The position numbers were made by a program, and so were the translations under genes. Under the pieces are notes generated by a model. The model did no database searches and was not told the origin of the DNA. It was given only the letters and a program-made list of their open reading frames with translations. Below, in pieces: positions 11,390 to 25,289 of a DNA stretch of 64,000 nt. This stretch comes from Pseudoscleropodium purum (lineage: Eukaryota; Streptophyta; Bryopsida; Hypnales; Brachytheciaceae). The first letter of the stretch is position 1. Each line of letters begins with the position of its first letter. The stretch covers positions 3,348,001-3,412,000 of the forward strand of contig OZ017795.1 of assembly GCA_963969395.1 (NCBI GenBank). Direction: 5' to 3'.

Positions 11390-12259
11390 ATGGAGGGAAC
11401 TAGAAGCCCGATTTCTGCCGGCTCCGAAGTTGTTCCTGACCAAGCACGCGAACAAGATGTGTTCCAGTGCAACATTTGCAAGGAACATTCGATCCGAGAA
11501 ATTCAGTCCTGACCATATTGTTCTGCTGGCCATGCCTGCACGGGTGGTTCAAAGACCAAGAGATGCCGTGCCCGGTGTGGAAACTCATGTTAACAAATTA
11601 AAGGGCATCATCATTCCCATTTATGGAGCTCAGAAAAGAAATTCCGAAGTGAACGGATCTCTCCCACCCCGCCCTCTTGCCCCTGTCAAGAAGCCAAAGT
11701 ACTGGCGCCAGAAGTGGCGATACGATTCGATCAAGCAGTTGGACTAATACCCGACGACGCAACGGGCGACGCAGCCGACATCGTCTCCATCGAAGAGTTG
11801 TACATTACCCCAATTGCAGTTCCACGACTGGAGACCATATTGTTAGACGACAGCGTTCTCCATGAATTGCTGCGAGATCGACACTTGGAGTCTTTGAATT
11901 CACGAGCGCTCACTGATTCTCAATCGATTTGTCAGTTGCATCCGCCATGGAGCCATGACCTTGAGCATCTTCTGATGATTTTGGTCTTAATTTTTGGAAC
12001 TATAGTATCCATTGTGTTCTACACTTCTACCTTGTATATTTTCTATTTAAATTCCTCCGCCCCCTTCAAAAGCTCACGATCAATTCCTAGTTCTACCTTG
12101 AAAAATCTGAAATGCATCAAAATGAGTCTATGTTTCTTGCTACTGCCCTATCGCCACCGTCAATTCCATTCTACAGACAAAAAGATTCACTATGTTGGAA
12201 CTTTCCAAGTTGTCTATAATCATATATGTAACTATACACCATATGCTAAATACTTTTAA
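11390..12259 (+). pseudogene. decayed RMA-like RING E3 ligase, copy A
   Basis: RMA proteins are ER-anchored RING ubiquitin ligases. An ATG at 11390 opens MEGTRSPISAG and the first zinc pair (FQCNICKEH), but meets TGA at 11510. One base out of frame the core continues as LFCWPCLHGWFKDQEMPCPV (11518-11577). There the last zinc cysteine is replaced by tryptophan (TGG at 11578), and a TAA follows at 11599. A further frame gives IIIPIYG, the motif found just after the RING in this family. After another shift an open frame carries a hydrophobic stretch (MILVLIFGTIVSIVFY, about 11975-12025), in the place of the RMA tail anchor. With at least three frame changes, two stops and a lost zinc ligand, this is a pseudogene. 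It lies tail to tail with copy B. Confidence 0.75.
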
Positions 12260-12397: not shown

Positions 12398-13082
12398 TCA
12401 AATTATTGCGTCGGTGTGAATGTGCCGCATCCTGTCAATCTCTTCCGCATATTGTCGATGTATCGCCGCAATCTCTCGAGCATGACGTCTGTTCATTAAA
12501 TCAATCAATTGAACGTTCCGGTCATTCTCCTGCCGCAACATCAAGCCCCATTGAACCAAATCCTCCACAGTTTGTCCCAGTGAATCCACTCGTTCTCATG
12601 AGATTTCAAAATTATCTGTGAGGTCATCTACAATCTCCTCCAAATGTCTCGGGGTCAGATCGTCCACTGTATTTGTAACCACTCCCGCCCGCGATGGTAC
12701 TAACAGAATGGGACCTCGTATTCGATCAGGTGATGGTGGAGGTGGCCGTCGTGGAATCATGGCTGCATTGACCGTGTTGGACTGAGGCTCCCCTGGTGGA
12801 GATTCATCGACATCGGCGCCGGTGGAGGTGAAGATGGGAATGATGTTGACGCCTTGGATCAAATTGGTTCTGCACGCTGGGCAAGGGCGAGGGTGGCGTC
12901 GCAGCCATGCGAACAAGCATTCCCAACAAAATAAGGTGGAGGCGACTGGGTGCATGGGTCGCAGTTTGGAGGCAAATGGAGCACGCATAGATGGTCTCCT
13001 GGTGTTGTTGGATCGCTTGGTCTGGAATGTGAGTATCAGTTTCGAAGCGGCTTGTTGAATCCTCACTTGCTGCTCCATCCAT
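12398..13082 (-). pseudogene. decayed RMA-like RING E3 ligase, copy B
   Basis: The ATG at 13082 opens MDGAASEDSTSRF and reaches the first zinc pair (YACSICLQTATH). The reading frame then shifts by one, and the other frame supplies FCWECLFAWLRRHPRPCPAC followed by VNIIPIFTSTG, the post-RING motif. The central Cys-x-His pair expected before FCW is not encoded in either frame. After a proline-rich linker (RRPPPPSPDRIRG) and LTPRHLEEIVDDL, a single in-frame TGA at 12596-12598 interrupts the protein. The same frame then continues for 65 codons as a charged helical region (ENDRNVQLIDLMNRRHARE). The frameshift, missing ligands and stop make it a pseudogene. Unlike copy A it has no membrane segment, so it resembles copy C more. 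Confidence 0.75.
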
Positions 13083-23856: not shown

Positions 23857-24009
23857 CATGGTTGTCATACTGGACAAGTTACTATTCATTTCATGTCCTG
23901 TAGGACGAGTTATTATTCATCAAATGTACCTCTTAGGTACATTTGATGAATAATAACTCGTCCTACAGGACATGAAATGAATAGTAACTTGTCCAGTATG
24001 ACAACCATG
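23857..24009. repeat. perfect 75-bp inverted repeat with 3-base loop
   Basis: Bases 23857-23931 are the exact reverse complement of 23935-24009, with CTT as the only spacer, and pairing stops at both outer ends. Each arm also contains two diverged copies of a 30-bp unit, GGACAAGTTACTATTCAT and GGACGAGTTATTATTCAT. Because the arms are identical while the units within an arm differ, the inversion is younger than the tandem duplication. A transcript would form a 75-bp perfect hairpin. Confidence 0.95.
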
Positions 24010-24268: not shown

Positions 24269-25289
24269 TCACAATCCTTTACTCCACCCAGGTGACAATT
24301 CCTGATTCACTCGATCCAACTGCTTTTGCAGCCTTCCAATATGTTCCTCCATTTGGATTCCCCTCTCGATGGTCTGCCGCTCTCTCGCCTGACTCGCTCC
24401 AGCCTCTCGAACCAAGAAGAAGTTCCTTCGCTCCAATTCGTTCACACAGCTGTCATTCTGCATCTTCTGTTTTCTCACTAGGAAGAGCTGCCAGTGTCTC
24501 TCCTCAAGCTCTCGTCTCAAGATAGCGTTTGCTTGTACCAAATTGCTCTCCCTACCTAGCAAATTAATTCGCTCTATCTCCAAGTCGTGCGATCGGGCTC
24601 TTTCGACGCTAAGTGCATGAGATGATTCGCTTATTGACCTCTCGTATGCAAGGACCAAGGACCTCGGAGTGACCACATTGCTTACCGAGTAGAAATTCTC
24701 AACGCCTGTAGCGTCGTCCGTGCTTGCAGTAGCCATGACCAAGAGTGGATTGCGCGGGTGTGGTGGGATGAAGCTGTGTGAAGCTGCAATCTCACCAGGA
24801 CGGCCGTTACCGTTGCCTGGCTCTTCACGAGCTCCTCCAATGCCATAAATAGGAATGATGTCGAGGTCTCTTCGTAAGGTGTATCTGCAAACTGGGCATG
24901 GCTTAGGCCGCTTCTGAAGCCACTGGTACATGCATGGCCTGTTAGATATACTGAAAATATACAGTATAGAGTAGTATACTGATTAATTAGAAGGCTGCGA
25001 CTCTTAGCAGAGAGTTGTGACTCTACAGAAGAGAGTCTTCCTGTATAAGAGTGTATATAAAACACTCTTTCATATATTATAAATATATAATACAATTGAT
25101 GTTAGAATCTCTCTTGCTCTCACAAGTCTAACGTGGCCAACAGAAGATGTGATCGCACGAGGTTGAAATTGGATCAGTTGGGGGCTCCAGGCAGATGAAG
25201 CACTCCAGCACATTTGGACGCATAGGTAAGTCAGCATCAACAGTGCTGACGGTGGTGGATGACTGAGTCAATTGCAAATTTCCTTCCAT
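24269..25289 (-). pseudogene. RMA-like RING E3 ligase, copy C, split by a 194-bp insertion
   Basis: The 5' part (25289-25134, 52 codons) begins MEGNLQLTQSS and carries zinc ligands Cys30, Cys33, Cys45, His47 and Cys50 in the words ECFICLE and TSCDHIFCWP. The 3' part (24934-24269, 221 codons) begins CMYQWLQKRPKPCPVC, supplying Cys53, Cys65 and Cys68, then LDIIPIYG, a proline/glycine linker and a long charged helical C-terminus (RRELEERHWQLF, GRLQKQLDRVNQEL). Together they make a complete C3HC4 RING and a 273-residue protein with no other defect. Between them sit 194 bp plus a duplicated TGGCC. On the gene strand the insertion gives a stop two codons past Pro52, leaving a 53-residue peptide. 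No membrane anchor is present, unlike canonical RMA proteins. The ATG at 24931 could still start a 220-residue product lacking most of the RING. Confidence 0.85.
24935..25138 (+). mobile_element. solo-LTR/TRIM-like insertion with 5-bp TSD
   Basis: The element runs 24940-25133 (194 bp), begins TGTTAGATA and ends TCTAACG, and is flanked on both sides by TGGCC (24935-24939 and 25134-25138). The ends TGTTAGA/TCTAACG are inverted repeats, as in LTRs, except that the usual final CA reads CG. A TATA-like TATATAAA lies at 25054-25061, a typical LTR position, followed by AT-rich sequence that could carry a polyadenylation signal. No internal region or second LTR is present, so it is either a solo LTR left by recombination or a very small element. 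A 5-bp-TSD DNA MITE is the alternative. Confidence 0.75.

Follow-up and report, generated by a model that had tools for sequence, protein, structure and literature searches.

Organization of the locus

The window analyzed here, that is, the whole stretch of 64,000 nucleotides of Pseudoscleropodium purum DNA, carries on its minus strand a RING gene which is divided within its zinc-binding core by a segment of 194 bp. The termini of this insert, read directly, are TGTTAGA...TCTAACG (24940-25133), and a perfect 5-bp target site duplication, TGGCC, lies at each side. The features of the locus are the following:

24269..24934, minus strand: 3' part of the RING gene, 221 codons beginning with Cys53 and then the stop; it includes zinc ligands 6-8 and, towards the C-terminus, a long polar region
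24935..24939, plus strand: target site duplication TGGCC, copy 1, occurring only once at the empty site in sister loci L064 and L065
24940..25133, sense on the plus strand: solo long terminal repeat (LTR) of 194 bp from a low-copy Ty1/copia element, antisense to the RING gene
25054..25061, plus strand: motif of the LTR, TATATAAA, which we take to be TATA-box-like
25134..25138, plus strand: target site duplication TGGCC, copy 2, overlapping the last codons before the insert
25134..25289, minus strand: 5' part of the RING gene, from Met1 to Pro52, with zinc ligands 1-5

Just 3' of the RING gene there is also a near-perfect palindrome of 153 bp (23857-24009; 150 of the 153 positions self-complementary), bordered by CCAGTTTC and CCAATTTC, which are alike at 7 of 8 positions. 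It is absent from the sister loci L064-L066 and is regarded as a second, MITE-like insertion.

The RING frame

The RING frame begins with the ATG at 25289, reads to Cys50-Trp51-Pro52, resumes with Cys53 past the insert and terminates at the stop at 24269. Reading into the insert after Pro52 adds one Arg, followed by a stop (CWPR-stop), and three of the eight zinc ligands are lost to this stop one codon inside the LTR. Removal of the element and of one TGGCC gives 822 nt, equivalent to 273 codons plus stop. This agrees with the initial annotation, made from the sequence alone, which had described a RING gene with a disrupted core, clean up to Cys50-Trp51-Pro52, resumed at Cys53 and restored to 273 codons without the element and one TGGCC. 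The 273-residue protein joined in silico spans the whole of two RING profiles, PF13639 (38.3 vs. a cut-off of 27.3 bits) and PF00097 (37.5 vs. 21 bits), while each half alone covers just its part of them: the N-terminal half passes only PF00097, and narrowly (21.5 vs. 21 bits, over positions 1-22 of the 40 in the profile), and the C-terminal half is above no RING profile cut-off. By curated cut-off and full profile, the joined frame is a C3HC4 RING and the separate halves are partial ones.

We take the RMA1/RNF5-type RING proteins to be the nearest named likeness of this protein, with which it shares the RING pattern C-x2-C ... C-x-H-x2-C-W-P-C ... C-P-V-C followed by an IIP-YG stretch. Members of the RMA1/RNF5 subfamily have a C-terminal membrane anchor. 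No membrane anchor was found in the window protein, the best 19-residue Kyte-Doolittle means of its two halves being 0.64 and 0.71, and membership of that subfamily was rejected for want of a suitable hydrophobic stretch.

Identity of the insert

The search of the same genome (313 Mb in 52 contigs) with the insert gave 15 places, which must be read, like all genome counts of LTR matches given here, as lower bounds: the window copy itself, seven copies at 94-98% identity, one at 72% and six partial matches at 76-79%. Six of the seven close copies are pairs that bound three elements with total lengths of 6257, 6270, and 6180 bp; the seventh adjoins a copia interior, with no second LTR within the stretches examined. 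The 5-bp flanks of the three full-length elements (TGCAC/TGCGC, GGTAG/AGTAG, and CCTCA/CCTCA) agree at four, four, and all five positions, respectively, and these duplications are unrelated. Directly 3' of the 5' LTR the full-length elements carry TGGTATCAGAGCA, which is presumably a primer site of the tRNA-Met type, and a purine tract, AGTGGGA(A/G), precedes their 3' LTR. A Pfam scan was made of the interiors of L026 and L028, L024 and L025 being placed by DNA identity instead. In L026, stop-free frames on the sense strand match, in this order, Retrotran_gag_2, gag_pre-integrs/rve/SH3_retrovirus and RVT_2; in L028 one frame matches from gag to SH3, i.e., from gag to integrase. The interior DNA of L025 is 95-97% identical to the interiors of L024, L026, and L028. 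The copia interior of L026 had no match within the 64-kb window.

Given its 94-98% identity to the paired LTRs, the copia domains of the parental elements and the lack of an interior in the window, the insert is identified as a solo LTR from a Ty1/copia family of low copy number, with its sense on the plus strand. The LTR-like nature proposed in the initial annotation is thereby borne out, and the further copies and parental element for which it had suggested a genome search exist as the seven close copies and the three full-length elements. The insert resembles plant Ty1/copia solo LTRs in its single LTR, its 5-bp target site duplication, its absent interior and its parents of gag-INT-RT type. 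It differs from them in ending in CG for CA and in lying within a coding frame, and is the same in kind.

The terminal bases must be considered in this regard. The window LTR starts with TG (TGTTAGA), as expected of an LTR, and one of the seven close copies starts with TA. Its end is TCTAACG and not CA; all seven close copies end in CA, six of them as TCTAACA, from which the window end is one substitution away. This last base speaks against a Ty1/copia solo LTR, but a CA end was not treated as defining descent, because descent rests on identity. A non-autonomous TRIM-type element or a DNA transposon would agree with an insert so short and with imperfect inverted ends; the identity of 94-98% with LTRs of copia elements of about 6.2 kb that contain coding domains makes it very unlikely, and it was rejected.

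Sister loci and empty sites

Three close sisters of the RING gene are found on the window's own contig (C1:4652055, C1:3585692, and C1:3571818), 0.2-1.3 Mb away, with main matches of 85, 71, and 60%, respectively. All three are without the 194-bp segment and align with the window on both its sides, as well as in several flanking blocks. At L064 and L065 the alignments at the breakpoint overlap by exactly the five bases of the duplication, and TGGCC is single. The segment is likewise absent from L066, whose target site has undergone local change and departs from TGGCC plus A, a point that counts against the explanation proposed here.

In addition, paralogous loci were gathered genome-wide with the C-terminal half of the protein as query, and the N-terminal half was then compared locally at those loci. 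In 27 of the 30 RING loci thus obtained, corresponding to 24 distinct places (L040, L042, and L044 repeat L036, L035, and L037, and L058 is a partial match of the N-terminal half), both halves adjoin with no extra bases at the insertion point. The remaining three are the window gene (L034), with 199 extra bases, and L053 and L062, without a match of the N-terminal half. A conserved family intron, which the initial annotation had named as the alternative to be checked, was rejected within this genome, none of the 24 other places with both halves aligned having extra bases there. Together with the empty site in the close sisters, this indicates that the segment is an insertion and not an intron of the family, as the initial annotation had held.

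Age of the insertion

Compared with the seven close copies, the solo LTR has two private changes in 194 positions, one of them the last base (1.0%, Poisson 95% interval 0.1-3.7%). The two LTRs of the full-length copies are separated by 5, 4, and 8 differences in 194 positions, and half of that divergence (1.0-2.1%) is of a comparable order. At 1.3 × 10−8 substitutions per site and year, a rate applied to plants in PMC7251063, the solo LTR would be 0.8 (0.1-2.9) My old and the full-length copies 1.0, 0.8, and 1.6 My, the rate being borrowed and only the ratio of these ages being meaningful. In the flanks, the branch of the window since the split from its nearest sister has accumulated 58 substitutions in 1974 positions (2.9%); unresolved cases, comprising 10 substitutions and 2 indels, were left out of this count, and neither the LTR nor the palindrome was counted as an indel. 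Set against the 1.0% of the LTR, this suggests that the insertion probably postdates the gene duplication, in agreement with the absence of the insert from the three close sisters, although the ranges overlap.

A "very recent" insertion was rejected as a demonstrated fact, given two private changes in 194 bp and the width of their Poisson interval. The choice put forward in the initial annotation, between a very recent insertion and a functional allele elsewhere, is not supported in that form, for the LTR has changed by 1.0% (0.1-3.7%) and a clean frame also fits neutral drift.

State of the gene before the insertion

The coding changes that could be polarized on the window branch were 13 replacements and 8 synonymous changes, with no stop (3 unpolarized changes were left out). 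This proportion is not significantly below the neutral one (binomial p = 0.17 with kappa 2 and 0.26 with kappa 4). Coding substitutions amounted to 20 of 779 positions (2.6%), a rate like that of the flanks. Between zinc ligands 3 and 4 the window gene has Asp, where five other aligned copies have Gly, and all three close sisters are damaged by frameshifts and lost ligand cysteines. These observations favor a copy that was already drifting as a pseudogene when the LTR arrived and whose clean frame was due to luck, a course that is compatible with the LTR insertion and to which we give somewhat less than an even chance. Against it, 2.2-2.9 frame-breaking changes would be expected in the coding part from the indels of the flanks and none was seen (p of about 0.06-0.11), a value which is generous because the window copy is the best preserved of four. 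It is possible that the gene was functional up to the insertion. Its clean frame does not prove recent function, because the coding rate is about that of the flanks, the replacement to synonymous proportion is compatible with neutrality (p = 0.17), and a neutral copy would keep a clean frame with a chance of about 6-11%.

Present product of the interrupted gene

Judged from its reading frame, the window copy is most likely a null allele or pseudogene that would yield at most a peptide of 53 residues with ligands 1-5 of the eight. Two findings weigh against this and were considered, namely a splice form that is possible on paper and a database protein that starts just after the insertion point.

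With regard to the first, GT/GC-AG splice pairs with a donor at or beyond nt 61 of the frame were listed; 45 of them keep 230 or more residues open, and a single one, a GC-AG pair of 199 nt, restores the protein of the empty site exactly. If the insert worked as such an intron, the 273-residue protein would be recovered and the LTR remnant would be silent at protein level; the putative acceptor, AACA|G, would consist of the LTR end and the first G of the duplicated target, and the putative GC donor would be supplied by the upstream duplicate. Donor strength was scored on the consensus of nine positions for splice donors, of which the donor TTG|GCCACG matches three; an equal or better match occurs at 584 of the 1013 positions in this stretch. 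A duplication starting with G-G-T/C would be expected by chance about once in 32 (a hand estimate), and the unrelated duplications of the three full-length copies also stand against such an intron. In PMC9860276, Introners are reported with splice sites supplied by the target site duplication and with GC donors. The window insert is like those Introners in lying in a coding frame with a duplication able to supply splice nucleotides, and unlike them in being one insertion, with a very weak donor and of LTR rather than DNA-transposon origin. All things considered, a working intron is very improbable here.

As for the second, the only match among 532 candidates in the protein database was P0001, a protein of 220 residues, 71% identical, predicted from the very Met that follows Cys53. 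In the window, too, the frame from the ATG at 24931 is open for 220 codons, and the 3' half might be made as a separate RING-less protein starting at Met54, perhaps in some species. However, the promoter of the LTR itself, with its sense on the plus strand, would point away from the 3' half, and the start assigned to P0001 comes only from gene prediction, on a metagenome contig of 1744 bp. A search of the protein database with the N-terminal half, among proteins of about 29-92 residues, gave no candidate. The distances from P0001 to three of the four copies of the subgroup are roughly equal, so that P0001 probably belongs to this RING subgroup and comes from a related species. Its start may be an artefact of prediction, or its upstream part may be interrupted there too. 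Production of the 3' half from Met54 is improbable, if a little less so than the exact splicing, and the null copy stays the preferred reading.

Proposed course of events

Taken together, the data make it very probable that a Ty1/copia insertion in a RING gene was reduced to a solo LTR, leaving a copy that is most likely null. A Ty1/copia retrotransposon would have entered codons 51-52 of a RING copy without an intron there, with duplication of the 5-bp target TGGCC, and later recombination between its LTRs, a step read from the anatomy of the locus, would have removed the interior of about 6 kb and left one LTR of 194 bp. Translation would now end one codon into this LTR, presumably with no functional product. 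The loss was probably tolerated, since RING genes are numerous in this genome and several related copies may have been redundant with this one.

This is an ordinary gene disruption, in which a solo LTR interrupts one member of a large RING family. Its interest lies in being a clear example, with the empty sister sites and the parental elements in one genome, of how a retrotransposon remnant interrupts a gene copy, and the locus shows one route to the loss of members from a RING subgroup in decay. The general picture is unchanged by it, and the insertion would carry more weight only if the exact splicing were true.

Other RING copies in the window and the genome

RING genes are many in this genome, with at least 140 matches to PF13639. 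At least 24 of at least 35 genome matches to the C-terminal half lie on contig C1, some genes giving two matches, and a regional expansion of the family on this contig is possible.

RING remnants with interrupted frames occur in the window at 11491-11604 (plus strand) and at about 12473-13067 (minus strand); they are more distant relatives, and the alignments of both run into stops or breaks. The sole in-window match to the window gene is a remnant at 12919-12815 (46% over 35 residues), and that at 11491-11604 was found only with paralogue queries. Such distant matches led us to reject the in-window copies as close sisters. The two decayed in-window sisters of the initial annotation are thus real and interrupted, but distant, the close ones lying outside the window and being damaged as well. 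A piece of the remnant at about 12473-13067 shares 96% identity with a copy in L030 across 23 residues.

The suggestion that the window gene was the last good local copy goes too far: it is the best preserved of its four-copy subgroup, but more distant relatives with open frames, L038 and L039, exist on the same contig. These two RING copies (L038:1306-2187, at C1:2146841, and L039, at C1:2128740) are 98.3% identical, lie about 17 kb apart in opposite orientation and have Asp at the position of the RING histidine (CGDVFCWPC).
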